Origin: a virus
Strand: one strand, 5' to 3'
Length of the DNA: 20,632 nt
Virus record (IMG/VR): IMGVR_UViG_3300032086_004221
Location: 1-20,632 of that record
The position numbers and the translations under genes are program-made. Every line of letters starts with the position of its first letter. Position 1 is the stretch's first letter. The notes beneath the pieces are model-generated. The model did no database searches, was not told where the DNA came from, and saw nothing but the letters and a program-made list of their open reading frames with translations. This document shows, in pieces, positions 4,565 through 19,829 of the stretch.

Positions 4565-4650
4565 CAATAAGTCTCAGATAGTTGTTCTACAGAATAAGCT
4601 AGCAATACAAAAAATGCAATGCTAGTTGTGGTGAAAATAATTTCAGACAT
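4564..4650 (-). CDS. Single-span micro-protein, 28 aa, between two hli-operon genes
   Basis: The ORF encodes MSEIIFTTTSIAFFVLLAYS followed by VEQLSETY. It is one short transmembrane helix with almost no other sequence, the architecture of low-molecular-weight photosystem II, photosystem I and cytochrome b6f subunits. Both ends are fixed by TGATG overlaps, with Hli upstream and the 73-aa gene downstream, which is strong evidence that it is translated. The likeness to PetM- or PsbM-type subunits is in size and topology only; the sequence does not let me name it. Confidence 0.7.
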   Translation of the reverse strand: MSEIIFTTTSIAFFVLLAYSVEQLSETY

Positions 4651-4868
4651 CAGAATCCGAAAGCACCAAAGAAAAATACACTACCAGTAGTAGCATAGCT
4701 GACGATAGCAGCAATAAATCCAAGCATAGCAGTACGTCCATTTAACTTCTCCGCACGTTCTGCATAGGTCTCATATCCATAACGCTCGGCATCAGATTTA
4801 GAGATGTACATCTGAGGCTCTTTGGCAAACATGTTCTGTTGCCCAAACTCATTTGTTGTTACGGTCAT
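4650..4868 (-). CDS. hli: High-light-inducible protein (Hli), 72 aa
   Basis: The C-terminal half is a full Hli helix: AERAEKLNGRTAMLGFIAAI with E40, N43, G44, R45, M48 and G50, followed by the TTG turn (60-62) and a hydrophobic FFFGAFGF end. Residues 1-35 are a polar extension that may reach into the stroma. The protein is expected in the thylakoid membrane, where Hli proteins bind pigments and protect or help assemble photosystems. It is the first gene after the consensus promoter at 4895-4923 and overlaps the 28-aa gene as TGATG. No ribosome-binding site is visible before its ATG. Confidence 0.95.
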   Translation of the reverse strand: MTVTTNEFGQQNMFAKEPQMYISKSDAERYGYETYAERAEKLNGRTAMLGFIAAIVSYATTGSVFFFGAFGF

Positions 4869-4911: not shown

Positions 4912-4923
4912 CAACCTTGTCAA
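4895..4923 (-). promoter_or_regulatory. Consensus sigma70 promoter of the hli operon
   Basis: TTGACA (4918-4923), a 17-nt spacer and TATAAT (4895-4900) form a perfect bacterial housekeeping promoter. It should be read by host RNA polymerase early in infection. The -35 box contains the TGA stop codon of the GT25 gene, so there is no intergenic spacer. Transcription should start near 4888, about 20 nt before the Hli ATG. Confidence 0.85.
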
Positions 4924-5720
4924 GTATTTTGATTTGATTTTCCTGAAGGTTCACTAATTCTAGAAAAGTATGGGTCAAAGTTTGTAATCTGATCCACACT
5001 CATCTGACAACCAGTCTCTCTCCAAAAATTTAATATTCCATTAAAACTATTTCGATGAAACGCATCAATGTGATCTGGATGAATAGAAGACCCTAATTCG
5101 GTTCTATACAATAGTATGGGAGTAGCATAAGTAATTCCAGAATTATAAACCAAATCATCAGCAACAGGACGTGGTTTTACACCATTATCAAGTTTATACT
5201 TATCTCCACGTATATGAAAATCAATTAACTTTTTAGCATGATGTCTAGTAATTACATAACATGCTGTAGAAAAATCATTCACAAATCGTGTATGAATAGG
5301 AACATGTATATCTCCTGTAGAAATAATTGCAAGTTGCAATGTATCCCATGCGTATGGAACTTTTGATATAAAATCTTTCCAAGTAAAATTCCAATATTTA
5401 ATTACATCCAACCAACAATCATCCTCCATCATAATTGCACATTGAGTATCACTCGTATCATACCAATGTTTAATTGCCTTTAAATGAGACGTAGTACATC
5501 CTATTTCACCAGATGAAACACCTTCAGGGTATCTACCTTTAATAATACCACTCAAATCATCTTCACGACCATCATAGGCACTAATACGAGTATAATCTTC
5601 TATCTCCCAATACTTAAATTGTTCTTCCATATACTCACGTCTTTCTGGTTGACCATCCAAATTAATATAATATACCGGAGGAAGTCCTTTGAGTTTATAT
5701 GCCGATTTATTTTTGTCCAT
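4920..5720 (-). CDS. Glycosyltransferase family 25 (LPS-type)
   Basis: A 266-aa GT25 protein. The N-terminal family motif is YYINLDGQPERREYM (residues 17-31). EIGCTTSHLKAIKHWYD follows, and then MMEDDCWL with the metal-binding EDD. GT25 enzymes typically transfer galactose or glucose to lipooligosaccharide or, in eukaryotes, to hydroxylysine. It is the last gene of the long glycan cluster and probably works in the host cytoplasm on a surface-glycan or virion acceptor. Its ATG overlaps the GT11 stop codon as TAATG. Its own stop codon is part of the next promoter. Confidence 0.85.
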   Translation of the reverse strand: MDKNKSAYKLKGLPPVYYINLDGQPERREYMEEQFKYWEIEDYTRISAYDGREDDLSGIIKGRYPEGVSSGEIGCTTSHLKAIKHWYDTSDTQCAIMMEDDCWLDVIKYWNFTWKDFISKVPYAWDTLQLAIISTGDIHVPIHTRFVNDFSTACYVITRHHAKKLIDFHIRGDKYKLDNGVKPRPVADDLVYNSGITYATPILLYRTELGSSIHPDHIDAFHRNSFNGILNFWRETGCQMSVDQITNFDPYFSRISEPSGKSNQNT

Positions 5721-6523
5721 TATATAATCTCCCAGTGTTCGGGGTATAAGTCTTTTATATTTAAATGAGAATTGTTAGGTCCAAACCATTTTTTGGGTGC
5801 TATTACCTTTCCTTTATTTGCTAACCATGCACCCCACCAAGAGAATGTAGAATTGGCAATAATAAAATCCTTACATTGACTCATTAAGTATAGATCCATG
5901 TAAGGATTATTTCCTGAAGAAACAATAAATCTATCAGATTCAAACAACTTTTGCTCCACACACCACTGAGGATCATCACTGAAGATTACAATCTGTCTTT
6001 TAGAATTAAATTTACTTAGAGCTTTTTCATAATAAACAAGAGATTGATTGTAATGATTACCAGAATTGATTAAAAAATCTCCTCTACGAATGTGAAGAGC
6101 AATAGGATTATCAAAACGTTCTTCAATAATATCATTACAATCATCAATAATTTCTTCTTTAAATTTGAACTGACTTCTTACTTCATCTTCACAATGCTTA
6201 AAGTATTTTTCAGTTTGAAAAAATCCGTAAAGAGTAAAATTATTATGTCTATCTATATTAAAAATATTACTATCAAACTCAAACCCATTTTCGGAAAAAA
6301 CATTATCGGTTTTAAGTAGTCCTTTATTGTCTGGTTTAATATCAAAACAATCAAATAGTTCTATTCTTAGTTTGTTACCAAGAACATCAACAAGAACTTC
6401 ATTATGATCCGGAATTGTAAATGTAACTCCAAGATATCTTGCGGCACCTAAGGTTGCCGCATACTGAAACATTTGATTACCAAGTTGTCCCAGTTTACCA
6501 AGATAGTTAAATGCTACTGTCAT
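5720..6523 (-). CDS. Glycosyltransferase family 11 (alpha-1,2-fucosyltransferase-like)
   Basis: A 267-aa GT11 protein. The N-terminal motif LGQLGNQMFQYAATLGAARY (about 11-30) and the GDP-sugar binding motif HIRRGD (144-149) are both intact, as is the C-terminal NSTFSWWGAWLA region. The family transfers L-fucose, sometimes a related 6-deoxy or L-sugar, from a GDP donor. The GDP-mannose 3,5-epimerase at the start of the cluster makes GDP-L-galactose, a close mimic of GDP-L-fucose, which may be the real donor here (inference). The start is the ATG at 6521-6523, overlapping the previous stop codon as ATGA. A truncated relative of this gene lies at 18574-18741. Confidence 0.9.
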   Translation of the reverse strand: MTVAFNYLGKLGQLGNQMFQYAATLGAARYLGVTFTIPDHNEVLVDVLGNKLRIELFDCFDIKPDNKGLLKTDNVFSENGFEFDSNIFNIDRHNNFTLYGFFQTEKYFKHCEDEVRSQFKFKEEIIDDCNDIIEERFDNPIALHIRRGDFLINSGNHYNQSLVYYEKALSKFNSKRQIVIFSDDPQWCVEQKLFESDRFIVSSGNNPYMDLYLMSQCKDFIIANSTFSWWGAWLANKGKVIAPKKWFGPNNSHLNIKDLYPEHWEII

Positions 6524-7218
6524 TTTACCTTTTCCCAATCAAATCGAATAAAATCAGTTGACCAATTTCCACTTCTCTTCTTTTCTTCATGCAACTTGTG
6601 GTTGTGAGAATTATCTCTATTAATATCTGCCTCCCCTTCAGGACAATAATCTAAGTATAAATCCAAATAGGCAATAACATGAAGTTTTCCAACTGATCTA
6701 AACCAAAAACTAGGATCAGTCCATCCATAATGACCAACTAAATCTTCTTCACATCCACCAACATTCCAATAATCCTCAACTCGAAGAAGACAGACTGCAG
6801 GATGTGGTTGACCATTCTTAGGATGATTAGGATATTCAGGAACTCTTCTATTAAATTTAAATGCTTCTCCTGTTTTTGAAGAAGTTAATTTCAACATATT
6901 TGAAGCAAGTTCTTCAGATACAAAAGTATCCATATCCAGAATCACCATCCAATCTGTCTTACATTCTTGAGCAGATAGATTTCTAACTCCAGCAATATTA
7001 CAATAAAGATCTTTTTTTACTCGATAGATGGATACATCAATATCGGACATATCAACATCCTTTAAGGTGTCTATTGCTGGAACTTTACTACAATCATCGA
7101 CAATACAAAAAGAAAATTGATCTCGTATTTCTTTCGACCAAGACTTCCAAGACTCAACCTGCTTTATAAGAACTTTATTCTGATTATAGAACGATAAGTT
7201 TATTGTAATTTTTTTCAT
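6520..7218 (-). CDS. Glycosyltransferase family 2-like protein
   Basis: A 232-aa protein with a GT-A fold. The N-terminal strand ITINLSFYNQNKVLIKQVES is followed by FCIVDDCS, the region YCNIAGVRNLSAQECKTDWM, and LDMDTFVS with the metal-binding DxD. Near the C-terminus GWTDPSFWFRS and HNHKLHEEKKRSG match the acceptor side of GT2 enzymes. The sugar and acceptor are unknown. I use the ATG at 7216-7218, which overlaps the epimerase stop codon as ATGA; a TTG seven codons upstream is the only longer start. Confidence 0.85.
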   Translation of the reverse strand: MKKITINLSFYNQNKVLIKQVESWKSWSKEIRDQFSFCIVDDCSKVPAIDTLKDVDMSDIDVSIYRVKKDLYCNIAGVRNLSAQECKTDWMVILDMDTFVSEELASNMLKLTSSKTGEAFKFNRRVPEYPNHPKNGQPHPAVCLLRVEDYWNVGGCEEDLVGHYGWTDPSFWFRSVGKLHVIAYLDLYLDYCPEGEADINRDNSHNHKLHEEKKRSGNWSTDFIRFDWEKVK

Positions 7219-8102
7219 TTTAAATTTTTCTTGATCCAATCAACAACTTTGGTACTCCACTTCCATCCAAGAGTCTTTTGAATTTTATCAATATTGGCTC
7301 TGGAATGCATAACTTCACCTTGTCTAGAAGGAATCATGATTTGATAATCAGAAATTAAATCAGCAATAGTTTGAATTTCTGTTCCCTCTCCAGTTCCAAC
7401 ATTGAAGACTTCACCATATGTTTCAAGTTCTCTTTGAGAAGCAAGAATATTTGCATAGACCACATCAGATACATGAATAAAATCTCTTGTTTGATATCCA
7501 GGTTCTACAACTGTAAGAGGTTCTTTGGTTTCTTTCTGTCTTTTGAAAATGGACATAACAGGAGCATACTGTCCCGACTGATGCTGCCCCTCACCATAAA
7601 CGTTAAAGTATCTAAAGACAACTGTCTTTAGACCATAAAGTTCATAATACATCTTAAACAGCATCTCTCCAGAATACTTAGAAATTGAGTAAGTGTTCAG
7701 ACAGTCTACCCTGTTTGTTTCATAGTTGGGATTGTACAATGTATTACCATACACAGCACAAGTAGATGAGAATATCGCTCTATCTACATTATGAATCCTA
7801 CAGCACTCCAATACATTCATCGTTGACAACATATTGTTTGCCATACTTTCATTTGGTTTCTCAACACAATATGAAATAGCAACCTCTGCTGCCATATGAA
7901 ATACGTTGTTCACACTGTCAAAAAGATGAACATACTTATTGTAATTTTCAATCAAGTCAACAAGATAATATGTTGCTTTAGGATTTGGATTGTGGTGATG
8001 AACTCTATCCAGCACAATAACTTCATGTCCCAAGTCAACTAATCTATTAACAAGATGAGATCCAATAAATCCACATCCACCGGTTACAATACTTCTAATC
8101 AT
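7215..8102 (-). CDS. NAD-dependent UDP-sugar epimerase (GalE/WbpP-like extended SDR)
   Basis: A 295-aa extended SDR. It has TGGCGFIGSHL (residues 7-17) for NAD binding, FHMAAEVAI, the SSTCAVYG serine region, and YSISK as the catalytic YxxxK. FRYFNVYGEGQ and RDFIHVSDV complete the UDP-sugar epimerase pattern. It probably interconverts UDP-glucose and UDP-galactose, or the corresponding N-acetylhexosamines or uronic acids. The family pattern does not decide which. It overlaps both neighbours as ATGA, within the glycan operon. Confidence 0.9.
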   Translation of the reverse strand: MIRSIVTGGCGFIGSHLVNRLVDLGHEVIVLDRVHHHNPNPKATYYLVDLIENYNKYVHLFDSVNNVFHMAAEVAISYCVEKPNESMANNMLSTMNVLECCRIHNVDRAIFSSTCAVYGNTLYNPNYETNRVDCLNTYSISKYSGEMLFKMYYELYGLKTVVFRYFNVYGEGQHQSGQYAPVMSIFKRQKETKEPLTVVEPGYQTRDFIHVSDVVYANILASQRELETYGEVFNVGTGEGTEIQTIADLISDYQIMIPSRQGEVMHSRANIDKIQKTLGWKWSTKVVDWIKKNLK

Positions 8103-9082
8103 AATTCATAGTTATCTGTTGACATTGAAAGACACTCAACTGGAGAGACCATCTTATTGAATTTTGAATTGCAATTATCCCACATTTGTGTATATGAAAT
8201 ATTATGCCAACAAGATTCCCAAACTAATGGTAAAACTACTCCTTCTTCAAAATATCCACTGTGCAATCCAATAATATTTGTCTTATACAAATCGTACAGT
8301 GGAAGAGGAAATGTCTTTATATTATGTATCTTGTATAATAAAGACAGTATAGACTGATCATTTTGATGTTTAATAAAGTGACCACTTTCTTTACTGATAG
8401 ATGGAGAGTAATCCATCAACCTTATTATACTCCATGTGTCAAATAATTCCTGAAAGAATTTTACCGTATATTCATTCTTCTTCACCAAAAAAATACCACC
8501 ATATGCTTGATTAGTATCCCAATACAAAGAATCAGTAATATTAAAATGATCATACAGATCTCTTTTAGTAAAAAGTTTTTCTAACCAAAAATCACTATGA
8601 AATCCTACAATTCCTTTTTCTGAGTTATTAGCAAGATTAAAAAGATTTTCAACACCATCTTCTTTTAGATCTTTGATATCACTATCAATCCAAAAAATAA
8701 CATCACCATCATCACAATCTTGAAGACCTTTATACATTAAGTATGCCTTTGCTGCCCAAGGAAATACACGACTATCATCAAATAATGATTGATGCTCTTC
8801 AATATATCCTGGATCAACATCGGAAAGATTGAATACGTTCACCTCGTCAATAATAGAATACTTTTCAACCCTCTCCTTAAATGATTTCATATTAATTTCT
8901 CTTTCCCTATGTCTATCAGCAAAGGTAAAGATTTTATATTTACCCTCCTTTTCTGATGACCTCATCTCATTACCACCAGAGAGAATTTTATCCTGGTTAT
9001 TAGGATTTCTATAGTAATAATTTGTAGTTACATCAAAAAAATATGGAAGATATTTTTTTACAGAATCAAAGGATTGTGACAT
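8099..9082 (-). CDS. GT-A type putative glycosyltransferase, 327 aa
   Basis: The DxD motif VIFWIDSDIKDL (D133, D135) lies after a Rossmann-like half, and YGGIFLVKKN and HQNDQSILSLLYK (239-251) follow, as in nucleotide-diphospho-sugar transferases. I cannot place it in a numbered GT family with certainty. The first 40 residues are poorly conserved in character; an internal ATG at codon 40 precedes KYKIFTFADRH, which is the true start of the fold. The first start overlaps the previous gene by 17 nt, a spacing used several times in this genome, and I keep it. Confidence 0.75.
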   Translation of the reverse strand: MSQSFDSVKKYLPYFFDVTTNYYYRNPNNQDKILSGGNEMRSSEKEGKYKIFTFADRHREREINMKSFKERVEKYSIIDEVNVFNLSDVDPGYIEEHQSLFDDSRVFPWAAKAYLMYKGLQDCDDGDVIFWIDSDIKDLKEDGVENLFNLANNSEKGIVGFHSDFWLEKLFTKRDLYDHFNITDSLYWDTNQAYGGIFLVKKNEYTVKFFQELFDTWSIIRLMDYSPSISKESGHFIKHQNDQSILSLLYKIHNIKTFPLPLYDLYKTNIIGLHSGYFEEGVVLPLVWESCWHNISYTQMWDNCNSKFNKMVSPVECLSMSTDNYEL

Positions 9083-9743
9083 TTTCTAAATCAGGATTGT
9101 AAGATGATAAGGTGTGTATTGAAAATTTTACTTTATTATAAAATTTAAACAATCTTGAATAATCGTCCTTGATCGATTGACATTGCTTTTTCTCAACCTC
9201 ATAGTCATGTTTCTGTGGAACTAGATATTCTCTCTCGTAAAAATCAAGACCAAAAATATTTACCTTATCTGCATTATAGTAGTTAATCGCAAGCATGATA
9301 CCCCATGCCAGAGAACCTCTGACACATCCCAATGGCCATACACCTGGATAACTATCCTCCTGCTTGAGTTTGCCACTTAGATGAGCATATTTGTAGTCTT
9401 CTACACACTCTAAGGGGAAGCAACTAAAATTACCCTGAGCAGGACAATCTCTATCTGTGCCGGAACCAGGAGGAAAAACTGTATTATACTTGTTCTTGAC
9501 ATTATGATCTGATTCAATACCTTTAATCAAAGGTGATAGATCTCCAATGGTTGGTGTACAAATAAGTGTAAGATCTTTTCCAGTAATAAACTTGGAAACT
9601 TCAGGTACTTTATAATATTCACATGGGTTTCTAGGTGATTGCCACCACTCATTAATTAAAATTACATCACTACAATCTGATTCAAATCCGTCAAGTTTTT
9701 TAAGAGATTCACCTCTTCCTAAAATAGTTACTTCCACAATCAA
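9066..9743 (-). CDS. GT42/sialyltransferase-like protein
   Basis: A 225-aa protein. The start IVEVTILGRGESLKKLDGFE resembles the GNGPSL loop of GT42 and the related DUF115 fold. The segment GSLAWGIMLAINYYNADKVN ending IFGLDFYE resembles the CxIDFYEG stretch of Campylobacter sialyltransferases such as CstII. The donor could be a CMP-linked acidic sugar, but no CMP-sugar synthetase of the NeuA type is seen nearby, only the nucleotidyltransferase at 17251. The start is uncertain: a TTG at 9741-9743 overlaps the aminotransferase stop codon as TTGA, and a GTG lies two codons later. Confidence 0.6.
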   Translation of the reverse strand: MIVEVTILGRGESLKKLDGFESDCSDVILINEWWQSPRNPCEYYKVPEVSKFITGKDLTLICTPTIGDLSPLIKGIESDHNVKNKYNTVFPPGSGTDRDCPAQGNFSCFPLECVEDYKYAHLSGKLKQEDSYPGVWPLGCVRGSLAWGIMLAINYYNADKVNIFGLDFYEREYLVPQKHDYEVEKKQCQSIKDDYSRLFKFYNKVKFSIHTLSSYNPDLENVTIL

Positions 9744-10792
9744 AATGAAGATATTACATCGTATATATCACTCTTTTTCATAGATGGTGTGAGTGGTAAA
9801 CAAACGTGCGGAACCCAAGAACGATTCTCTCCTACAAAAGTGTATGGATAAGAATTCTCATCAAGAATTGAGGTTATTTGATTAGTGTGATCATAAACAG
9901 GTGAAGTTTTTATCGGAGAATCTGAGATGAAACAAATATACTTATAATAAGATGGTGAGACAACAGATTCAGTATAGTTAATTTTTTTAAAAGACAAGTC
10001 ACCTAACTTTGAATCATAGATGTCTGCCAGTTCTTCCTTATGTTGGATAATTGATTTGTAGTTATTAATAATAACATTGGCAATTGCTGCAGAAAAATCA
10101 TTCATCCTAGCATTTGGAAGTGCTGGTAAAGAATGATGCAATTGTCCGTCAAAAGAATACTTACCATAATCACGCAAACAACGTGCTTGTTTTGCTTTTA
10201 CAGAATCTTTCAGAATAACAACTCCACCTTCACCAGCAGGAATAGGTTTAGTAGGAAAGAAGGATAAAATTGCGGCATCTCCAAAGGTGCCGACATATTG
10301 ATCATCTATACTGACAAAAGGTGAGTGAGCACAATCTTCGATAAGAATGACTCCTCTTTCTTTACACAGATTTGATATCTCTGCAATGTCAGGATTTGGA
10401 TATCCACCAATATGAGTAATAACAATAGCATCAGGTTCATACTCTAGGGCATCCTTGATGATGCTAATATCAGGCATTAAGAGATTCTGATTAGATCCAA
10501 GAAGAATGATCTCTTTATTAGTGGTTACCCATGGCAAACAACTAGCAAAGTACGTATTTGTCTGAACTGCTATCTTTTTAATTTCAGGAAATAGCAAACT
10601 AATTGTTTGAAGTGCAGTTCCACCACTTGAAGTTGTTACACAAGGACGTTTGTACAAATGCCAAAGAGTATCTTCAAGCAGTTTTGACTGTGGACCAGTG
10701 GACCAAAATCCAGAATGCAACACCTCAATCAATGATTTTTCTAATTGATCATTGATTGATTGACCAAAATCTAAAAATTTATAACCCATCAT
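9740..10792 (-). CDS. DegT/DnrJ/EryC1/StrS-family PLP aminotransferase
   Basis: A 350-aa sugar aminotransferase. Visible motifs are the TSSGGTAL phosphate loop, EDCAHS with the PLP-binding Asp, and SFFPTKPIPAGEGGVV, whose Lys (about residue 182) would form the Schiff base. The family converts a nucleotide-linked keto-sugar to an amino-sugar with glutamate as donor, in the cytoplasm. No dedicated 4,6-dehydratase is obvious next to it, so the keto-sugar may come from one of the SDR proteins here or from the host. The start is an ATG after GGAGAGG at 10796-10802; the next codon is also ATG. Confidence 0.9.
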   Translation of the reverse strand: MMGYKFLDFGQSINDQLEKSLIEVLHSGFWSTGPQSKLLEDTLWHLYKRPCVTTSSGGTALQTISLLFPEIKKIAVQTNTYFASCLPWVTTNKEIILLGSNQNLLMPDISIIKDALEYEPDAIVITHIGGYPNPDIAEISNLCKERGVILIEDCAHSPFVSIDDQYVGTFGDAAILSFFPTKPIPAGEGGVVILKDSVKAKQARCLRDYGKYSFDGQLHHSLPALPNARMNDFSAAIANVIINNYKSIIQHKEELADIYDSKLGDLSFKKINYTESVVSPSYYKYICFISDSPIKTSPVYDHTNQITSILDENSYPYTFVGENRSWVPHVCLPLTPSMKKSDIYDVISSF

Positions 10793-11597
10793 CACCTCTC
10801 CAATAATTAGACCATTTGGGATCGAGATACTCAGTAGAAGATGCGAAACGTAAATCGCACGATAATCTCGGAATCATATTGTTAGTATCAAAAGACGCAT
10901 GTACAACATTTAGACAATGAAATACTATATCTCCTTTCGAGACCTTTGGCAAGTACCAAGTCGTTTTAAGACGATCTGCCAAATCCTTCAGATCACTTGT
11001 AATTGTTTTATCATCTTTAACCAATTTTGTTATTGGTGAAATATTTTTATGAGAATCTTTAAGATAAACAAGTTGACCATGATGAAAATCAGCAGGTCCG
11101 AGTGGTATCCAAGCAGTTAATACTTTACTACTGTCTGATGTATGGAAGTAGTCTCTATCACGGTGTGCTAGGGTACATCTAGAACTAAAATGAGAGAAAC
11201 TTCTTAAGATAGCTCTTGGAGATAAGGCAGATTTTTCTGACCTTAATAGAACTGCTGCTAACTTTTTTAAAACACTAGACTCAATAAAATTACAGAATGC
11301 TTCTGAACGTACAAATCTATTAGCAGGGTGCGATCCTACACCATGTGATAATTTTGAACTTTTAACATGAGTCCATTCACTACCATCATACTCATAATCT
11401 TCACCAAACATAGAAAAATATTGACTCCGTAAAGAGTCAATAATCTCATGAGAAAAAACATTTTTTACAATTAGAATTCCCTCAAAATTATTAAGTGGTT
11501 TGCTGCTAAGAAGATCATCAAATTCAATGTAACATTCAGAAGGAACATCAATTGCTTCAAAAGACTTTCCAGATGCTTTTAGATTATATGGTTTCAT
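10779..11597 (-). CDS. Phytanoyl-CoA dioxygenase-like 2OG/Fe(II) oxygenase
   Basis: A 272-aa PhyH-family protein. The metal ligands are H145 and D147 in AHRDRDYF and H233 in NVVHASFD; R244 in PRLSCDLRF would bind 2-oxoglutarate. WIPLGPADFHHGQLVYLKDS is the typical core strand before the distal site. The family hydroxylates small molecules, lipids or sugar-linked substrates. Inside a glycan operon it may oxidise a glycan residue, an amino-sugar or a lipid carrier (inference). It overlaps the glycosyltransferase gene before it by 4 nt. Confidence 0.85.
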   Translation of the reverse strand: MKPYNLKASGKSFEAIDVPSECYIEFDDLLSSKPLNNFEGILIVKNVFSHEIIDSLRSQYFSMFGEDYEYDGSEWTHVKSSKLSHGVGSHPANRFVRSEAFCNFIESSVLKKLAAVLLRSEKSALSPRAILRSFSHFSSRCTLAHRDRDYFHTSDSSKVLTAWIPLGPADFHHGQLVYLKDSHKNISPITKLVKDDKTITSDLKDLADRLKTTWYLPKVSKGDIVFHCLNVVHASFDTNNMIPRLSCDLRFASSTEYLDPKWSNYWRGDDGL

Positions 11598-12517
11598 AAA
11601 TATTTTTCAATAATTTTTTTAATTTCACATGCTCTAATCTCCCAAGTCAATCTATTATTGAAGATTTCATAAGCATTATTTACAATGCCCTTTCTTTCAT
11701 TTTCATTATCAAGATAGTATTGTGCTTTCTCATAAAACTCATCTACAGTAGAAAACATAACACAGTTTACCCCATCAATAATCATATCACCATAAATCTT
11801 CTCATCCATTCTATTACAGATAACAAGACTTCTATTAGCAGCAAAAATCTCAAAGAACCTTGTACCTACAAGATCAGCAGGACCAGTAGTTACAAGGCAC
11901 AATTTTGAGTCAGATAAATGCCTAGCATACTCATCGTCAGTAAACATAGTCCCTGCATAGTTGTTTCTATGTGACCTCACATTAATAAAATTTCCAAGTT
12001 TACCGTTGAGTCTATCCAATTCCAATAGAACTCTTTCTCTAAGATTTTCAGACTGTTCAGGTCTTGTTACACCAGAGAAGAATATATCGTGTTTGTAATC
12101 TCCACCATAGTTTCTAAACTGCTTTTCACTAGCAGACCACATAATTCTATAAAATGGAATAGAGGTCTGAGACATAAACTTATCAACATCATGATGAACA
12201 GTAAGAGCAGCAGTTGCTCTCATCTCTCTAATCCAATCTAGTTTATTATTAAGTCCAGTATATTCTTTATTTAAGATAGGAAAAAGGAGAGTATTACTAT
12301 CTCTGATCAATGATACTGGTTTACCATCTCCACAATCAGTGTGTCCGAATCCCAGAAAAACTGCATCATATCCTTCAAAGTCACTGGTTTTTGTGGGAAC
12401 AAAATTTTTAAATTCAATATCAAAAAATTCTTTAAGTGCATAGAATATTTCACTGTAATAAGAACAGTATCCATTCCTCAAAGGTTTATTTGGATGCTCA
12501 CAAAACAAAAACTTCAT
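11594..12517 (-). CDS. CgeB-like glycosyltransferase (GT-B fold)
   Basis: A 307-aa GT-B type protein. The C-terminal half contains KLCLVTTGPADLVGTRFFEI, then ICNRMDEKIYGDMIIDGVNC and VMFSTVDEFYEKAQYYLDNE. This is the nucleotide-sugar binding order of CgeB and other GT1/GT4-like proteins: the E of the FEI segment, a G-N-C-V loop and a helix that counts residues of the sequence. The donor is unknown. I choose the ATG at 12515-12517, which overlaps the methyltransferase stop codon as ATGA with GGAG upstream; the TTG four codons earlier is less likely. Confidence 0.8.
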   Translation of the reverse strand: MKFLFCEHPNKPLRNGYCSYYSEIFYALKEFFDIEFKNFVPTKTSDFEGYDAVFLGFGHTDCGDGKPVSLIRDSNTLLFPILNKEYTGLNNKLDWIREMRATAALTVHHDVDKFMSQTSIPFYRIMWSASEKQFRNYGGDYKHDIFFSGVTRPEQSENLRERVLLELDRLNGKLGNFINVRSHRNNYAGTMFTDDEYARHLSDSKLCLVTTGPADLVGTRFFEIFAANRSLVICNRMDEKIYGDMIIDGVNCVMFSTVDEFYEKAQYYLDNENERKGIVNNAYEIFNNRLTWEIRACEIKKIIEKYL

Positions 12518-13098
12518 TTTTTTCTCCAAGTCAAATCAATCTTATTTTCAGTATTACCTTTATTCCTAATAAAAGTAAGCCCATATCCATAAGGAAGAGT
12601 TGCATATTCAACATCTTTATCAGATACAAAATCTTGAACTGCTTTTGACATTCCCTCACCCAAAGTATGATGTCTAGTATCATGGGTAATCAAAATACCA
12701 TCATGTTTAAGGTATGGATAGATGTTATTAAGATCTACCAGAACTTCTTCACCTACATGAGAACCATCATGAAGGATTACATCATATTGATCAAACTCAA
12801 CTTCTTTATCACTAAAGATATCATTACTATTTCCATGATAGAAACTCCACTTGTCACTATTTTTTGAAAAATTAGTAACATTGGGATTATCACTGTAGTT
12901 TGTAATATCTACACTAGTCAATACTCCGCCAGTTTTTTCAAGTGCATGAAGAATAACATGAGTTGAGAATCCACTACCAAACTCAAATACATTTTTAGAT
13001 TCCATACCGACTATGCAAGAGTAAAGAAATCCATAATGAAGTGACATTCCAGTATCACCTTTCTCTGCCTTTGCTGCAATTTGTTCTAAAATGTTCAT
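12514..13098 (-). CDS. Class I SAM-dependent methyltransferase-like protein (Methyltransf_24 type)
   Basis: A 194-aa Rossmann protein. The SAM-binding motif I is VFEFGSGFST (residues 37-46), motif II is LTSVDIT, and DVILHDGSHVGEEVLVDLNN matches the motif IV/metal region of this family. It may methylate a hydroxyl of a sugar in the glycan made by this cluster, but the acceptor cannot be read from sequence. It overlaps both neighbours by 4 nt as ATGA. A second protein of the same type is encoded at 17961-18590. Confidence 0.8.
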   Translation of the reverse strand: MNILEQIAAKAEKGDTGMSLHYGFLYSCIVGMESKNVFEFGSGFSTHVILHALEKTGGVLTSVDITNYSDNPNVTNFSKNSDKWSFYHGNSNDIFSDKEVEFDQYDVILHDGSHVGEEVLVDLNNIYPYLKHDGILITHDTRHHTLGEGMSKAVQDFVSDKDVEYATLPYGYGLTFIRNKGNTENKIDLTWRKK

Positions 13099-13766
13099 GC
13101 TGTTCTACTGTGATTTGAATAAACTATTTGAGGCATAATAGTATTACCTCTAATTGTATTTGCTTGTCCAGGAAGAATATTAGGTTTGATTCCCAGTTGA
13201 TGGCATACAAATGGAAAACTAATTTGATCTCTTGAAGAGAACATACATATTTGCTCCCACCACATCCAACCCATTCTTTGAGTCAATTCTGTGTTTCTCT
13301 GAACTCTTGCTGGTAATTCATATAATCCATTATTCTCAGGATAATCCATATCCATATAAAAGTCAAGTTGATCTTTCACCAAGTTTTGATGATCAAAATT
13401 AATTCTTATGACTTCCTTCCCTTCATCATATACACAGTTCTGACCAGGATGTTTGAATACTGCAACATCACTATTGCTCAGATATTTGTCAATGACATCA
13501 TAAGGATCGGTTTCAAGAATATGGGTGGAGTCAACCCAGAAATAATAATCATAGTCTGGAAGAAATGTAAAAGGAAGAACTTTATACACCTTAGCATTTC
13601 TTCTATTCTTATAAGTAGGATCTGAAGAGAATAGCAATACAGGATGAACGTTCCACCCATTTGCGGGAGATTTATCTACAAATGCATGATAGTCCACACC
13701 CTCAAATGGCACTGGTTTGATTAATTCATTGGTTCCAACTGATGCTGTTACAACTGCTATTTTCAC
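13095..13766 (-). CDS. DUF616-family putative glycosyltransferase
   Basis: A 223-aa protein of the DUF616/TOD1-like type. Signs are KIAVVTASVGTNELIKPVPF at the start, FSSDPTYKNRRNAKVYKVLP with the paired arginines and lysine, YFWVDSTHIL as the DxD-like site (D79), and VFKHPGQNCVYDEG. Proteins of this family are linked to polysaccharide assembly in plants and bacteria. It is a probable glycosyltransferase of the cluster. It overlaps the oxygenase gene before it and the methyltransferase after it by 4 nt each. Confidence 0.8.
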   Translation of the reverse strand: MKIAVVTASVGTNELIKPVPFEGVDYHAFVDKSPANGWNVHPVLLFSSDPTYKNRRNAKVYKVLPFTFLPDYDYYFWVDSTHILETDPYDVIDKYLSNSDVAVFKHPGQNCVYDEGKEVIRINFDHQNLVKDQLDFYMDMDYPENNGLYELPARVQRNTELTQRMGWMWWEQICMFSSRDQISFPFVCHQLGIKPNILPGQANTIRGNTIMPQIVYSNHSRTA

Positions 13767-14479
13767 TTTGATCTCTCCTTACATAATTTAACTATATCAG
13801 GGTCAGTTGATTGTTCCTCTGTTGGTACAAAAAGTGCCCTATATCTTTCTTCAGTGTTTTCGTCCACATCAGTTAGATAATAAACTGCAAGACTTTTTCT
13901 ATATTTTCCCTCTGGACAGGTCAGTGGTTTAGGTAATCCATGCCATGAATTCTGTGTAGTATCAAACAGGATTGCTCTATTGAACTTAGGTTCAATAGTT
14001 TTGATCAACTCTTTGGGTCTATTTGTTTCTGAATTATTTGACCATAATTCAAGACCACCACCCCAAGTAGAATCCCAGACATCGGACATATACACAATTA
14101 AGTTAAGTTTTCTCTGTAATTTTAACTTAGGGTGAATTGAATAATCTTTATGAATGTTTAAATTGCCACCCCTACCATGAATATGAAGACCGCCACCATG
14201 CAATCCATAGTCTGGATATAAGTTCTTAATACCAGTCATCGACTTAATAGTCTCAATGAAATCATTAGAACACAAGTCCTGCAGTGTCTTATAGATCTCT
14301 GGAGGAAATCTCAACCAGTGTTGCAAAGTCTTCTTATTTTCAATTGGATTTTCATAAAAAAACCACCTCTCATCATCATAATCAGGAAAGTTTTCAGTTA
14401 TCCTTTGTGCTTTATCAGGGGAAAAGAAGTCGTCAATAATCCAATGGTCAAAAGGTTCTTCATACGTTGATAAGGTCAT
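13763..14479 (-). CDS. 2-oxoglutarate/Fe(II) oxygenase (HxD type)
   Basis: A 238-aa 2OG oxygenase. The triad is H110 and D112 in LNIHKDYS and H180 in QNSWHGLP; R194 in KYRKSLAVYYL would hold 2-oxoglutarate. STWGGGLELW is the family strand between them. Enzymes of this shape hydroxylate protein side chains or small molecules and are frequent next to glycosyltransferase genes in phages and marine bacteria. It is distinct from the PhyH protein at 10779 and the HxE protein at 581. It overlaps the GT2 gene before it by 20 nt. Confidence 0.85.
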   Translation of the reverse strand: MTLSTYEEPFDHWIIDDFFSPDKAQRITENFPDYDDERWFFYENPIENKKTLQHWLRFPPEIYKTLQDLCSNDFIETIKSMTGIKNLYPDYGLHGGGLHIHGRGGNLNIHKDYSIHPKLKLQRKLNLIVYMSDVWDSTWGGGLELWSNNSETNRPKELIKTIEPKFNRAILFDTTQNSWHGLPKPLTCPEGKYRKSLAVYYLTDVDENTEERYRALFVPTEEQSTDPDIVKLCKERSK

Positions 14480-15173
14480 ACTTTTCCTTACAGTATTTTG
14501 TTTCTTTCTCTACATAATATTCCCTATTCTTATGAGAAACATTAGTAGTCACAGAATATTCACCAACTCTATTCGATATCAATACATCATTTAAAAAAAT
14601 AGGTTGTCCATACTTTTCATTCATCCCATAGTAAAATTCACAGTCCATAAAGTAAACCAAGGTTTCATCAAATCTATTCGATACTTCTTTTCGGAAAGAG
14701 AGTACAGATGGAGAGCTGATAGAATTTATACCTTCAAGGAGATTGTCATTCCATTTGGGATACATTTCCCAATAGAAAGAATGACCATCATCTTGCGTAT
14801 GATTACATCCATTAACTAACCACATTTCATCATTATTTTTGAATTCATTATAAATTTTTTCTAGTGCTTCATCATCATAAAAAAAGTCATCTTGAAACAT
14901 TACCTTGATAATGTCCCCAGAACACATATCAATTGCTCTATTTGTATTTGCAGGACCATTCCCTCGATTTTCTTCATTTCTGGTATAAAGAATATTGATT
15001 CTATCTTCAAATTCTTTTATCTTGTCAAGAACTTCGTTGTTCTCACTGTGATCAGAAATACAAACCTCATAATCTTTAAATGTTTGTATTTCAATAGTTC
15101 TTAATAGATCATCAATAAATTCTGATCCTTTCCCATAAGACTCCCAAGTTGGAACTGCTATTGATATTTTCAT
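14460..15173 (-). CDS. Glycosyltransferase family 2
   Basis: A 237-aa GT2 protein. The first strand and UDP-binding loop are ISIAVPTWESYG, followed by VCISDHSENN (motif with the first Asp), NRGNGPANTNRAIDMCSGDI, and MFQDDFFYDD as the DxD. The C-terminal part includes SSPSVLSFRKEV and NDVLISNRVGEY. It probably adds one sugar to the phage-directed glycan. It lies 24 nt after the GDPD-like gene, the largest spacing inside the cluster. I see no terminator or convincing promoter there. Confidence 0.9.
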   Translation of the reverse strand: MKISIAVPTWESYGKGSEFIDDLLRTIEIQTFKDYEVCISDHSENNEVLDKIKEFEDRINILYTRNEENRGNGPANTNRAIDMCSGDIIKVMFQDDFFYDDEALEKIYNEFKNNDEMWLVNGCNHTQDDGHSFYWEMYPKWNDNLLEGINSISSPSVLSFRKEVSNRFDETLVYFMDCEFYYGMNEKYGQPIFLNDVLISNRVGEYSVTTNVSHKNREYYVEKETKYCKEKYDLINV

Positions 15174-15197: not shown

Positions 15198-15692
15198 TTA
15201 TAAGTAATCAGAAACTTCATTTAATTCTCTTCGGTAATAATTACATTTATCTGTACAGATTCCATGAGTCCTAAGGATTCTGTCGTATTTACCCTCGTAT
15301 TTATCGTAATACGAAATAGACTCAGGTAAAACAATGATCGAATTATTATATGGTATTTGTCCCACTAATACCCATCCAACACCCTTATTAGTTAAAGCAT
15401 ACCTATCATTTTCATGATAAAAGTAATGCAAATTCATGACTGTAGAAGAGCAAAACTCTAAAGATTCACGATCTTTACAGTGAATCCAGAGTCTTTCTCT
15501 ATTTTTATACAACCATCCAAGTTTTAGTGGATATTGTGCCTTATCATGTCCAAGATAAAGTCTTTTATCTTTTACTCTTAGATCAATCTCTACATCATAA
15601 CCCAATTCCAACGCTTCGTCAATATAGTCTGGACTATTCTCCCTTTCAGGATTTATTCCATCTACATTTCCACGGTGAGCAATAATAATCAT
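15198..15692 (-). CDS. Small GDPD-like protein (glycerophosphodiesterase fold)
   Basis: A 164-aa protein with the glycerophosphodiester phosphodiesterase signature: IIIAHRGN (H6, R7), EN at 18-19, YDVEIDLRV (E35, D37) and LYLGHD (H49, D50). Full GDPD enzymes have about 240 residues or more, so part of the barrel is missing or reduced. Short proteins of this kind are found in capsule loci, often near a nucleotidyltransferase, as I remember them. The retained His/Glu/Asp residues suggest that a phosphodiester or sugar phosphate is bound or cut. It starts one base after the RuBisCO-like gene, which suggests a shared pathway. Confidence 0.8.
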   Translation of the reverse strand: MIIIAHRGNVDGINPERENSPDYIDEALELGYDVEIDLRVKDKRLYLGHDKAQYPLKLGWLYKNRERLWIHCKDRESLEFCSSTVMNLHYFYHENDRYALTNKGVGWVLVGQIPYNNSIIVLPESISYYDKYEGKYDRILRTHGICTDKCNYYRRELNEVSDYL

Positions 15693-15693
15693 A

Positions 15694-16932
15694 TCAAAAC
15701 TCTAAAACCCACTCTGGTAGAGATCCACCACCAGTTTCATAACCCCACTTATCGATAGCATCGCGGAACTCTTCTCCAGGGGTCTTATCAATCGCTTGTC
15801 GCATTGCCAAAGCACCTGATAAAGTTCCGCCAGGATGACCGTGAACAGCACCACCACAGTTTGCTAGAAAGTCAGTTCCAAACTTCTCAGCGGTGGTATT
15901 AACGATGCCTGGATGCATACCACAACTGAGTGCCGGTAAAACATTTCTATGATGTAAAGTGCCCATCACAGTATGCAGTTCTGCTTCATCATCACTCAAG
16001 TATCCACCCCACATACCAGCATGAATAGTATCAACTCCACATAGACCTGCAAGATCACAAAGAACACTCCAATCAATACCAAAGTTGTGACGCTTATCAG
16101 TCAGAATCTTATCTCCACTCTTCTGATAGTGAACGAACAGTGGTAGATCCATCTTCCTTACAGAATTATAGACACCTAGTCCACTCCAGAAATTGATATG
16201 AATACCGTTACCACCATTATCTGCAACAAACTTTGCACGATTAAGAATAGTGTGATGATCACCATTAATACAGAAGCAGTAAATTACTCCCCTACCACAT
16301 TCATTAATAAGATTTGAAATAAGTTCTACACGATCCTCAAGACGACAAAAAGATGGGTTGGAAAGAATCTCATCCTCTTTAATAAAGTCCACTCCACCGT
16401 CAAGAAGTTCTTTGACCATCTCCGAAAGAGTTTGTGGAGAAATTCCAGTTTTTGGTTTTACAATAGCACCAGAAAGTGGTCTATCATAACGATTAACAAA
16501 CTTACGGATACCATCAATACCATACTTAGGTCCCAAGAACTGTACTTCAACATCAGCAGGAAAGTCAAGTTTCCTAAGTCTACATGTTTTGAAGACATCA
16601 ATATCAAGTTGACCTCCCATTAGCTGACACAACAAATGAGAGATACCGTCACCATCCCAGTCGGTATTAACTTTTGGAAAACCAATCTTGACTTCTCCAG
16701 AAGTCATAGTTGTCAATTTATCTTCGTCATCATATATGACACATGAAGCGAGTTCAAATAATTCGTCACTTTCCCAACGATTGCGAACCTTTGGATTTCC
16801 AACACTTTGACCAATAGCAAGAGCCCAAGCAGCATCACGAAGATTTCCTAAGTCTTGATATGTTTCAATATAAAATGTTGCTATCACGCAACGATTCTTT
16901 TCTACCTCAGTCAGTTCTCTAAAAAATTCCAT
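15694..16932 (-). CDS. RuBisCO-like protein (RLP), 412 aa
   Basis: The whole length aligns by eye with the RuBisCO large subunit. Retained active-site residues are K159 and K161 (GAIVKPKTGIS; spinach K175, K177), the carbamate lysine K185 with D187 and E188 (DFIKEDE; K201, D203, E204), H268 (H294), H304 (TIHAG; H327), S336 (S379) and G360-G361. The loop-6 lysine needed for carboxylation (K334) is Y311, and R295 is Y269. This pattern fits a form IV-like RLP: Mg-dependent enolate chemistry on a phosphorylated substrate without CO2 fixation. Known RLPs are enolases or isomerases of methylthioribose salvage and decarboxylases or transcarboxylases of apiose routes. Here it overlaps a cupin gene by 14 nt inside a glycan cluster. 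The gene is richer in GC than its neighbours. The reaction is unknown. Confidence 0.9.
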   Translation of the reverse strand: MEFFRELTEVEKNRCVIATFYIETYQDLGNLRDAAWALAIGQSVGNPKVRNRWESDELFELASCVIYDDEDKLTTMTSGEVKIGFPKVNTDWDGDGISHLLCQLMGGQLDIDVFKTCRLRKLDFPADVEVQFLGPKYGIDGIRKFVNRYDRPLSGAIVKPKTGISPQTLSEMVKELLDGGVDFIKEDEILSNPSFCRLEDRVELISNLINECGRGVIYCFCINGDHHTILNRAKFVADNGGNGIHINFWSGLGVYNSVRKMDLPLFVHYQKSGDKILTDKRHNFGIDWSVLCDLAGLCGVDTIHAGMWGGYLSDDEAELHTVMGTLHHRNVLPALSCGMHPGIVNTTAEKFGTDFLANCGGAVHGHPGGTLSGALAMRQAIDKTPGEEFRDAIDKWGYETGGGSLPEWVLEF

Positions 16933-17254
16933 TTGTTACCTCAAATTTGTCAGTTGGTATGGATGGAACTTTTACACAGACTACTCTACAGTCCTCATGA
17001 AATACTGGGTCTGCCACTTCTCCCTTTCCAAATACAAAAACATCTCCGGAATTTAATTCTGTTCCCTGAATGGTCATACGACCTTCAATCAAGACATTAT
17101 ATTCTACACACTCCTTATGATAATGTGCTGGCCATTTTTCATCTTTTTTGTGTGTTAAAACAGCAACTTCAAAATCTTTTGTTTTCAAAAGACTTGGTTC
17201 AAAGTTACCAATAAAATAACCTCGAACATAATCACTCAACTTAGTCACATTCAT
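16919..17254 (-). CDS. Small single-domain cupin
   Basis: A 111-aa cupin. Motif 1 is WPAHYHKECVEYNVLIEGRM with H44, H46 and E51 as metal ligands; motif 2 has H86 in VADPVFHEDC. A glycine turn (LNSGDVFVFGKGEV) lies between them. Single cupins of this size are metal-dependent isomerases, epimerases, dioxygenases or binding proteins of sugar phosphates or acids. Overlaps of 4 nt with the nucleotidyltransferase and 14 nt with the RLP tie it to both. It probably acts on the same small molecule, but the reaction cannot be told from sequence. Confidence 0.85.
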   Translation of the reverse strand: MNVTKLSDYVRGYFIGNFEPSLLKTKDFEVAVLTHKKDEKWPAHYHKECVEYNVLIEGRMTIQGTELNSGDVFVFGKGEVADPVFHEDCRVVCVKVPSIPTDKFEVTNGIF

Positions 17255-17964
17255 AATTTATCTAGATAAGTTTTTAAGTCTTCTGGAACTCCAACTGGAT
17301 TGTGCTGTTCGTTGGGAATATGATGAACTCCAATTGAAAAACCTTTCTTAATCATATAATTATATGTTGGTCCAACATAGAATTCTCCGTTAGGAGCTCT
17401 GTCATCAGATTCTATCATATCTAGAGCACTTTGCACAAAGTATTTTCCCTTTCTCCAATAATGAATACCATTCAAAGAAATATTACTAAGAACAATTTTC
17501 TCGCGTATTTCAGTAACAAATCCTTCTCTATCAATTTTTGCGTAACTGTTCTTCTCAGTATTTGTGTAATAAGTAACTACTACACCATCATACTTATAGT
17601 ATCTGGATGTTATTAGAAAAAGTTCTGGATCCCACCACATAATTTGATCACAGTTACAAATTACAAGTTCTTCTTCATTGTCAATATAATCTTTAAATAA
17701 AAGACAACTTGAAGCTGGCCCTTCTGTTGTTTCTTCTACGGATATTATTTTAGCTGAAGGTAGAATAGTATGCAACAATGTACATACTTGATCATAGTAA
17801 CTATCTTTTCTAATAATAAAATGATATGTTCCCACCATACCTAATGATTCTATTGCACATTGAATCATTGGTTTGCCATTAATATCAATCAGTGGTTTTG
17901 GTATTTTGTATTTGTCTCTGGGAAATCTAGTCCCCTCACCTGCCATTGGAATTATTATATTCAT
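17251..17964 (-). CDS. Sugar/polyol-phosphate nucleotidyltransferase
   Basis: A 237-aa NTP-transferase protein. The signature is NIIIPMAGEGTRFPRDKYKI with the glycine loop and R13, then PKPLIDINGKPMI with K23, and CNCDQIMWWD with D106 for the metal. The family activates sugar phosphates or related phosphates as NDP derivatives. Relatives with the same start are found in capsule loci, including Campylobacter cytidylyltransferases that activate non-sugar groups, so CTP and an unusual substrate are possible. It overlaps the methyltransferase-like gene and the cupin gene by 4 nt each. The substrate is probably made by the cupin and the RLP, which is an inference from gene order. Confidence 0.88.
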   Translation of the reverse strand: MNIIIPMAGEGTRFPRDKYKIPKPLIDINGKPMIQCAIESLGMVGTYHFIIRKDSYYDQVCTLLHTILPSAKIISVEETTEGPASSCLLFKDYIDNEEELVICNCDQIMWWDPELFLITSRYYKYDGVVVTYYTNTEKNSYAKIDREGFVTEIREKIVLSNISLNGIHYWRKGKYFVQSALDMIESDDRAPNGEFYVGPTYNYMIKKGFSIGVHHIPNEQHNPVGVPEDLKTYLDKL

Positions 17965-18590
17965 TTTTTTCTAGCAAATCCAATGCCCCAATCTTCTGGG
18001 CAACAGTTTTCTATAACATCCCATTTACCTTTATCAAGTGCTTTAATAAAGTTATTAGGACCAGGATGACATGAGGTATCATGAAATCCAACAATACCTC
18101 CATCAGCAAGAAGATTAGTATATTCCCAATCAGTCAAAACTTGATTAATACTATGCCACCCATCAATAAAAATAAAATCAAATTTTTCTACACCAATTGT
18201 TTTAAAAATTTCAACATTTTCATGATAATATGAACTGTTATTTTGAACAGTATGAATATTATTTTCAGAATCTCTTAAAAAAGAACGATCATCAATATCT
18301 AATCCAATATAAAAAGTATTCTTTTTTTTGTTCTTAAAAAATACATACGCAAAGGATTCTTCAGCGTTTCTACCAATACCAATTTCCAATATTGCCTTAC
18401 AATTGTCACGAACTTTATTAAATTGTTCTAAAAGATGATATCTATTACAATGAGTTACTTCTTTGGGATAGACGATTTCATTATCAATTATTTTATGCCG
18501 ATACCCCAATGGATGTGGAACACCACCATCTTGATCATCAAACTCAGTAAAAGTTCTAATATCTTTGATTAAATCAGATTTCCATTTCAT
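17961..18590 (-). CDS. SAM-methyltransferase-like protein (Methyltransf_24/CmcI type)
   Basis: A 209-aa Rossmann protein. ILEIGIGRNAEESFAYVFF is SAM motif I, FYIGLDIDDRSF motif II, and FDFIFIDGWHSINQVLTDWE the acidic motif with the following helix; GGIVGFHDTSCHPGP is typical of the CmcI/cephalosporin-hydroxylase-like group. An O-methyltransferase acting on a sugar is the likely reading. The start overlaps the GT11 remnant by 17 nt and the end overlaps the nucleotidyltransferase as ATGA. It is one of the most AT-rich genes of the cluster: one 60-base line at 18181 has 12 G or C. Confidence 0.8.
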   Translation of the reverse strand: MKWKSDLIKDIRTFTEFDDQDGGVPHPLGYRHKIIDNEIVYPKEVTHCNRYHLLEQFNKVRDNCKAILEIGIGRNAEESFAYVFFKNKKKNTFYIGLDIDDRSFLRDSENNIHTVQNNSSYYHENVEIFKTIGVEKFDFIFIDGWHSINQVLTDWEYTNLLADGGIVGFHDTSCHPGPNNFIKALDKGKWDVIENCCPEDWGIGFARKK

Positions 18591-18743: not shown

Positions 18744-19829
18744 TCAAACTGGGTAACGAAAAACATTTTTAGATGATGATTCAAAAGTTTTATAGGAAAT
18801 CTGCTTACCAATCCAAGTATATGTCTTGCGAATACCCTCTTCAAGAGTTTGAGAATAATCCCATCCAAGTTTTTCACGGATTAAATCATTGTTGGAGTTA
18901 CGACCACGCACACCCAGAGGACCATCAATGTGAAGTTTTTGAACATCTTTACCAGCAACTTTAGCAACAGTCTCCACCAATTGATTGATAGTAACCATCT
19001 CTTCGGAACCAATATTAACAGGACCAATGAAGTCACTATCCATCAACCGTCGAGTTGCTTCAATGCATTCATCAATGAACAAGAAGGAACGAGTCTGTAA
19101 GCCATCTCCCCACACCTCAATTGCTCCACCCTCCTCCGGAAGGTAAGCGACTTTACGGCAGATTGCAGCTGGTGCCTTCTCTCTTCCACCTTCCCAGGTT
19201 CCTTCGGGACCAAAGATGTTATGATATCTAGCAATGCGAACAGGAATACTATAATTCCTATTGTAAGCAAGGTACAGACGTTCGGAAAATAACTTTTCCC
19301 ATCCATATTCCGAATCTGGGTCTGCTGGATATGCGGATTCTTCACGACAATCGGGGTTATCAGGGTCAAGTTGGTTGTGTTCTGGATACATGCAAGCAGA
19401 TCCAGAATAGAAAATCTTAGTCTTATTTCCTACAGTCTCATTAAACTTTCGTTGTTCCTCAAGAACATTCAGATTGATAGTGACAGAGTTGTGCATAATG
19501 TCTGCATCGTTCTCTCCAGTAAAAACGAAACCTGCACCACCCATATCAGCAGCAAACTGATAAATCTCATCAAATGGACGATAATATCTTTCGGGTACAC
19601 TTGCGTAAAAATTACCAAGATACCCCTTAAATCGAAGACAACGACGAACAAAGTTTACATCACAAAGATCTCCCTGCACAAATTCATGTGCTTTAGTTCC
19701 AGAAAACTCAGGAGTCTTAAGATCTACACCACGAACCCAATATCCTTCGGACTTAAGTCTCTCGACCATATGACTTCCTATAAATCCACCAGCACCAAGA
19801 ACTAGTGCTGTCTTCTTAAATTCAGACAT
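18744..19829 (-). CDS. gme: GDP-mannose 3,5-epimerase
   Basis: A 361-aa extended SDR matching plant-type GME along its length. Visible are GAGGFIGSH (12-20), FAADMGGAGF, SGSACMYPE with S143 and C145, YGWEK with Y174 and K178, and HNIFGPEGTWEGGREKAPAA with K217. C145 and K217 are the residues known as acid/base pair in the plant enzyme. WGDGLQTRSFLFIDECIEA and NIGSEEMV complete the family pattern. The enzyme turns GDP-D-mannose into GDP-L-galactose or GDP-L-gulose in the cytoplasm. It is the first gene of the cluster, about 18 nt from the predicted transcription start, without a clear ribosome-binding site. Its GC content is higher than that of the following genes. Confidence 0.93.
   Translation of the reverse strand: MSEFKKTALVLGAGGFIGSHMVERLKSEGYWVRGVDLKTPEFSGTKAHEFVQGDLCDVNFVRRCLRFKGYLGNFYASVPERYYRPFDEIYQFAADMGGAGFVFTGENDADIMHNSVTINLNVLEEQRKFNETVGNKTKIFYSGSACMYPEHNQLDPDNPDCREESAYPADPDSEYGWEKLFSERLYLAYNRNYSIPVRIARYHNIFGPEGTWEGGREKAPAAICRKVAYLPEEGGAIEVWGDGLQTRSFLFIDECIEATRRLMDSDFIGPVNIGSEEMVTINQLVETVAKVAGKDVQKLHIDGPLGVRGRNSNNDLIREKLGWDYSQTLEEGIRKTYTWIGKQISYKTFESSSKNVFRYPV

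Follow-up and report, generated by a model that had tools for sequence, protein, structure and literature searches.

What does a RuBisCO-like protein (RLP) do in a phage, among genes for glycan synthesis? The question is raised by the window, i.e. the whole 20,632-nt stretch of viral DNA that was analysed (IMG/VR record IMGVR_UViG_3300032086_004221; Table 1). The contig comes from a T4-like cyanophage, as supported by the window protein encoded at 1156-1470, which matches 460 phage records at up to 95%; all 460 are named Synechococcus or Prochlorococcus phages, cyanophages or marine viruses. A packed minus-strand run encodes a methyltransferase, an NTP-transferase-fold nucleotidyltransferase (NTP), a cupin, the RLP, a glycerophosphodiester-phosphodiesterase (GDPD)-like protein and glycosyltransferases; from the coordinates, neighbouring genes at the joins around the RLP gene overlap by 14 nt or 4 nt or lie 1 nt apart. 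An Rfam scan of the window gave no matches, and ARAGORN found no tRNA in it. A preliminary description, made from the sequence alone, had claimed a complete 412-aa RuBisCO-fold protein, a cyanophage source and glycan-gene neighbours. All three claims held: the first by the ORF, PF00016, AlphaFold2 and Foldseek, the second through the 460 phage records, and the third through the NTP, SDR epimerases, glycosyltransferases and others. The strand of the RLP gene, which the description had not given, is minus.

Table 1. Features of the window, and NTP fusions of cyanophages that lack the RLP
Feature	Location	Strand	Remarks
SDR nucleotide-sugar epimerase/dehydratase	window 18744..19829	minus	
SAM methyltransferase (Methyltransf_24)	window 17961..18590	minus	common but not constant RLP neighbour
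NTP-transferase-fold nucleotidyltransferase (NTP)	window 17251..17964	minus	237 aa; core RLP partner
Small cupin	window 16919..17254	minus	111 aa; HxH...E motif (H44, H46, E51); 14-nt overlap with RLP start
RuBisCO-like protein (RLP)	window 15694..16932	minus	ATG start, 412 aa, complete; KPK 159-161, IKEDE 184-188, QKSG 270-273, GGY 309-311, SCG 336-338
Compact GDPD-like protein	window 15198..15692	minus	164 aa; invariant GDPD catalytic residues
Remaining glycan cluster	window 4920..15173	minus	GT25, GT11, GT2-type and TOD1-like glycosyltransferases, galE-like SDR; also DegT-type aminotransferase, 2OG-Fe oxygenase, PhyH, methyltransferase
Short ORFs	window 4062-4169 and 4650-4868	minus	ERAEKLNGRTAMLGFIAA-type sequence; resemble cyanophage high-light-inducible proteins
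Short endolysin-like protein	window 3487-3873	minus	phrog_12490, 4e-60; adjoins glycan cluster
NTP-RpiB fusion, phage Bellamy	L215:7992-9149		PF02502, 4e-32
NTP-RibB fusion, phage S-SKS1	L216:5001-6428		PF00926, 5e-65
NTP-HAD fusion, phage S-CAM9	L211:5341-6726		HAD fusions also in B23, DSL-LC03

The protein belongs to the RuBisCO superfamily by both fold and family match: it hits Pfam RuBisCO_large (PF00016) at E=4e-43 and 148 bits (cut-off 30), and its AlphaFold2 model (mean pLDDT 91) shows the RuBisCO fold over the whole length. Foldseek places the model at TM 0.85 to the form III RuBisCO 3a12, VIA-align matches the RLP to B. subtilis MtnW (Z 42.1, rmsd 3.1 over 372 residues), and the solved structures nearest by sequence in the PDB are form III RuBisCOs. 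Every NCBIfam RuBisCO and RLP model matches it far below its own cut-off; the nearest, for form III, scores 202 bits against 497, and the equivalog test fails for the MtnW models (124-166 bits, cut-offs 409-514) and the OiaX model (155 bits, cut-off 700). No PHROGs family matches the window RLP, and a BFVD fold search returned no hits but unrelated TIM barrels, with a query TM <0.4 even for the best, although BFVD may simply lack members.

The main tree set 30 family members against 38 reference RuBisCOs and RLPs (forms I, II and III, MtnW, OiaX, IV-Photo-type and other RLP rows). Every member, viral or cellular, falls in one clade, with 100/99 support and recovery in 100% of 200 bootstrap trees; an earlier tree of the family gave this clade an SH-aLRT of 99. 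Outside it lie the MtnW row (L160), the OiaX rows and three rows that we take as IV-Photo (Chlorobium type), on the basis of host group and profile scores and not of a named record. A profile built on the viral members scores the family at 295-724 bits and every reference at 198 or less. The tree has its limits: MtnW is a single row on a long branch, and MTRu-1-P isomerase, IV-GOS and IV-AMC are without a named reference in it. Against the references that are present, the window RLP is a member of a separate, previously uncharacterised clade. Placement within a characterised clade, with the same active site, would have counted against a new function; judged from the trees, the widely missed NCBIfam cut-offs and the active-site residues, the protein lies outside every such clade included (MTRu-1-P isomerase not among them) and its active site is distinct.

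Residue numbers were mapped via a form I reference. All 31 members compared carry the replacements E60G, T65N, N123G, D202E, H294Q, K334Y and G380C, and all 31 retain K175, K177, K201, D203, E204 and S379. R295 is usually Lys and H298 usually Asp, while H327 remains His in 27/31 members and is changed to Gln in a viral subgroup. Both GQSxGN and IKEDE are present in 103 of 103 distinct RLP proteins; the window RLP fits the clade signature that we propose, namely GQSxGN, IKEDE, Q-K/S-SG, GGY and SCG. In RuBisCO, Mg is bound by D203, E204 and the K201 carbamate, which also accepts the proton; reprotonation depends on K175, and CO2 addition requires K334 together with N123, E60 and T65. K201 corresponds to K185 of the window RLP. 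The protein lacks the catalytic set of a bona fide RuBisCO, K334, N123, E60, T65, H294 and R295 all being replaced; it has the RuBisCO fold with substituted carboxylase residues that a form IV RLP in the broad sense should have, the absence of RuBP carboxylase activity being inferred from the residues. Because the Mg/carbamate site and the KPK lysines are kept and K334, N123, E60 and T65 are not, enolisation is plausible and carboxylation implausible, an inference from residues and general RuBisCO knowledge without biochemistry.

We counted RLP neighbours in loci dereplicated at 90% identity, 59 of which have 2.5 kb on both sides of the RLP gene. Within that distance an NTP transferase gene was found in 58/59, a GDPD-like gene in 49/59 and a cupin gene in 42/59, against background rates of 1/131, 5/131 and 0/131 among the other genes of the first 81 loci lying >5 kb from the RLP; the window locus carries its NTP gene within 2.5 kb. 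The RLP-NTP linkage recurs in cellular chromosomes (SAR11, three Legionella species, Azospirillum, Elusimicrobia, Verrucomicrobia and Nanoarchaeia) with differing gene order, the NTP being upstream of the RLP in viruses and downstream in many cells, which favours functional linkage over shared ancestry alone. A neighbourhood peculiar to this phage would have weakened the case for a glycan role; it is instead conserved in relatives across viruses, bacteria and archaea.

Taken together, the NTPs form a divergent family. The GDPD-like protein is a GDPD of compact form, which VIA-align matches to P. furiosus GDPD (Z 11.3, rmsd 3.2 over 153 residues) and in which the catalytic residues are invariant. 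The cupin bears an HxH-E metal motif and has only weak relatives among solved small cupins; it is missing from 17/59 RLP loci, including those of SAR11, Legionella and Nanoarchaeia, and we therefore rejected it as an obligate partner. In the three Legionella (L. nautarum, L. maceachernii and L. drozanskii; loci L206, L207 and L208) a LicD gene (PF04991, 1e-42) is divergent from the RLP-NTP pair, an arrangement absent from most Legionellaceae sampled. LicD enzymes transfer phospho-units from CDP donors, so this neighbour hints at a CDP-linked product. LicD was sought in the viral RLP loci and not found. The idea that GDPD stands in for LicD was dropped: their distribution is complementary, but mainly in one genus. 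In SAR11 (L090, L093-L096) two different NTP-transferase-like genes flank the RLP, the upstream one (e.g. L090:1396-2133) matching no Pfam family. In one viral subgroup (L026, L031-L033, L035-L038, L074) the cassette is followed by an APH/fructosamine-kinase-like gene, a 3-dehydroquinate-synthase-like gene and an SDR (e.g. L035:2635-5323); perhaps a cyclitol-type product is made there.

In cyanophages without the RLP, homologous NTPs are fused to RpiB, RibB or HAD domains (Table 1). Database records for the Bellamy, S-SKS1 and S-CAM9 fusions name merely a phosphatase, DHBP synthase or pyrophosphorylase. Scanning IMG/VR for NTP-RpiB fusions yielded 30 loci, that of Bellamy included, with the RLP in 0/30, and RpiB was absent from the 180 RLP loci scanned. 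Nearly all the NTP-RpiB loci that are long enough continue with homologous cupin and GDPD-like genes, and the RpiB motifs of the fusions (SDHSGFEAK, FCRTGQG, RHNCANF) look intact. The RLP occupies the cassette slot that RpiB occupies in these sister phage cassettes; the replacement is shown, while functional equivalence is inferred from it. The exchange is not of single genes, since the RpiB cassettes have an extra KdsC-like HAD and PfkB-like kinase, both lacking from RLP cassettes, and the two pathways must therefore differ by more than one enzyme. The NTP-RibB fusion is found in S-SKS1 and relatives, in cassettes without cupin and GDPD genes, and one RLP locus (L080) also carries a HAD-NTP fusion. 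Since ribulose 5-phosphate is a substrate of RpiB as well as of RibB, and ribulose 1,5-bisphosphate is that of RuBisCO, pentulose phosphates are the likely substrate class for the RLP. RpiB-family enzymes also act on hexose phosphates.

The preliminary description had treated the RLP as a cyanophage protein, which needs correction: the family extends beyond cyanophages. Pattern scans of IMG/VR gave 240 and 360 stretches with the RLP, so that it is present in at least 360 places there, and its carriers include viruses of aquatic bacteria. One cassette lies on a 518-kb virus contig (L057, IMGVR_UViG_3300017917_001342), and the family therefore reaches very large phages. No phage record in INPHARED was matched in a tblastn search with the RLP, and in the same search of plasmids the only relatives were of OiaX-like or form III-like type, all <60% and the best rows at ~30%. 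In the genome scan, bacterial members came from SAR11, three Legionella species, Azospirillum oleiclasticum, an Elusimicrobium, a Verrucomicrobium and Patescibacteria, and archaeal members from Nanoarchaeia/Pacearchaeota. The gene is rare in cells, with 1/93 Legionellaceae, 2/197 Pelagibacterales and 1/241 Verrucomicrobiota; other matches in the Verrucomicrobiota sample score far lower, and A. oleiclasticum was the only carrier recognised in the Alphaproteobacteria sample. Sampling of Bacteroidota likewise points to rarity in cells. Nine further genome-scan loci (L105-L113), without a linked NTP and at <200 bits, were excluded from the family as form III-like. The cellular setting of one SAR11 locus (L095) includes ribosomal-protein, pheS/pheT-, lepA- and gyrB-like genes; in Legionella, purD/purN-like genes lie near the locus in two or more of the three species (names read from sequence in both cases). 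Some short contigs counted as cellular may nevertheless be viral. In one of them, a 3.3-kb contig (L082) of a Crocinitomicaceae MAG, the RLP is identical to that of a viral locus (L044) over the tree columns; we consider it likely that this is a misbinned virus contig.

What was computed (fold, clade, active-site residues, conserved cassette and RpiB replacement) is shown; the step from there to a pathway is inference. It is likely, judging from the residues and the cassette, that the RLP makes an unusual sugar building block and does not fix CO2. More specifically, and by a modest margin of preference, we read it as an enolising isomerase or epimerase of a ketose phosphate, probably a pentulose phosphate, whose product is activated by the NTP for a glycan. 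The RLP would take the proton next to the carbonyl of the ketose phosphate, for which a pentulose 5-phosphate (e.g. ribulose 5-phosphate) is the likeliest candidate; a Mg-stabilised enediolate would form at the carbamylated lysine and be re-protonated to an isomer or epimer. The adjoining NTP would attach a nucleotide to this sugar phosphate, giving a CDP- or other NDP-linked form, the cupin and GDPD-like proteins may carry out further steps of unassigned nature, and glycosyltransferases, or the LicD-type transferase in Legionella, would attach the unit to a surface glycan. An isomerase or epimerase is preferred mainly because of the RpiB replacement in the cassette and the pentulose-phosphate substrates that it points to. 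Gene context cannot name the substrate, and the base specificity of the NTP, like the substrate, reaction and final glycan, is inferred only. The earlier proposal that a phosphorylated sugar is formed or rearranged as a glycan building block is thus supported, and strengthened by the RpiB replacement, with the catalytic reaction itself not shown.

A possible alternative is that the RLP rearranges, splits or decarboxylates its substrate, giving a shortened or branched sugar phosphate for the NTP, whether by OiaX-like decarboxylation, RibB-like C-C chemistry or aldol-type branching. In its favour, RLPs of the apiose pathway act on 3-oxo-isoapionate-4-P by decarboxylation or transcarboxylation (PMC6302742), the Mg/carbamate site at K201 is preserved, and the homologous NTP is fused to RibB, an enzyme that releases formate from ribulose-5-P. 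Against it, a plain isomerase, RpiB, fills the slot in the most closely matching cassettes, cupin and GDPD are absent from the RibB cassettes, and H294, R295 and K334, which OiaX keeps, are all changed in the RLP clade. Loss of so many RuBisCO catalytic residues might also suggest an inert or regulatory protein, e.g. a scaffold for the NTP enzyme; however, no member compared, whether viral, bacterial or archaeal, has lost a metal ligand or either KPK lysine, which implies catalysis and leaves this explanation very unlikely.

Two more familiar roles fare no better. That the gene is a methionine-salvage RLP (MtnW enolase or MTRu-1-P isomerase) lying by chance near glycan genes finds support in the fold shared with B. 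subtilis MtnW, but it is very unlikely given the missed MtnW cut-offs, the position of the MtnW row outside the RLP clade, the K177G, R295P, H327L and K334S changes of that reference, and the NTP in 58/59 loci. That the phage carries a true RuBisCO as an auxiliary metabolic gene for carbon fixation is all but excluded. PF00016 is matched well over its cut-off, form III is the nearest NCBIfam model, and viral rbcL has been reported as a carbon-fixation gene (PMC12615777, PMC12607003, PMC8506154); set against these are the six replaced catalytic residues, the form III score of 202 against 497 and the conserved linkage to glycan genes. A Calvin-cycle role was accordingly considered and dropped.

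This bears on viral 'rbcL' more generally. We scanned IMG/VR with conserved motifs of forms I-III and obtained 23 relatives whose identity to the query does not exceed 27%; all 23 match the RLP profile (314-711 bits). Such a pattern scan would be expected to find form I, II and III genes with ordinary motifs and could miss divergent true RuBisCOs. With only RLPs returned, some viral 'rbcL' annotations may be RLPs, although published viral rbcL sequences were outside the scan. The viral RbcL of PMC12607003 clusters with 'RbcL-like' proteins, and PMC12615777 reports active viral rbcL co-expressed with rbcS. Where viral 'rbcL' has been reported to serve carbon fixation, K334 and N123 deserve checking.

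RLPs are not known to function in other than catabolic or salvage reactions, and literature searches brought up no relevant report of an RLP that takes part in making polysaccharides or phage glycans. The function is likely new, though unproven without biochemistry; if the isomerase/epimerase reading is true, an RLP is used for building, as a maker of a glycan precursor, and its family is carried mainly by viruses. The RpiB replacement gives a short, concrete substrate list, and thus the function is directly testable. A bolder reading, which we lean slightly against, is of a new activity in the RuBisCO superfamily that isomerises or rearranges ketose phosphates to supply an NDP-sugar for surface glycans, is interchangeable with RpiB, is spread mainly by viruses and explains most 'RuBisCO' genes of viral metagenomes.

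Among known systems, form III RuBisCO (Thermococcus kodakarensis, 3a12; Pyrococcus horikoshii, 2cwx) is nearest in both sequence (28% identity) and fold, and shares the metal/carbamate site and the KPK motif; its E60, T65, N123, H294, R295, K334 and G380 are all replaced in the RLP, which lies in a glycan-gene context. MtnW (the DK-MTP-1-P enolase, form IV-YkrW) resembles the RLP in having a non-carboxylating fold with the carbamate site kept and without E60 and K334, but belongs to a different clade, has K177G, R295P and H327L in its reference, and serves methionine salvage. Sixty-five marine RuBisCO homologues outside all known forms were described in the Global Ocean Sampling (GOS) survey (PMC1821046), where N123, K177, D198, F199, H327 and G404 were named as poorly conserved; no function or viral origin was proposed for them there, and their identity with the RLP clade is not established. 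OiaX and the apiose-pathway RLPs are, like the window RLP, non-photosynthetic, with a phosphorylated sugar derivative as substrate (inferred for the window RLP). Unlike it, OiaX keeps H294, R295 and K334 and changes K177, and has catabolic neighbours (e.g. a four-carbon acid sugar kinase) where the RLP has a biosynthetic NTP cassette. The Bellamy-type NTP-RpiB/cupin/GDPD cassette is alike in its compactness and its homologous NTP, cupin and GDPD-like genes, and differs in having an RpiB (LacAB_rpiB) domain instead of the RLP, with the KdsC-like HAD and PfkB-like kinase added.
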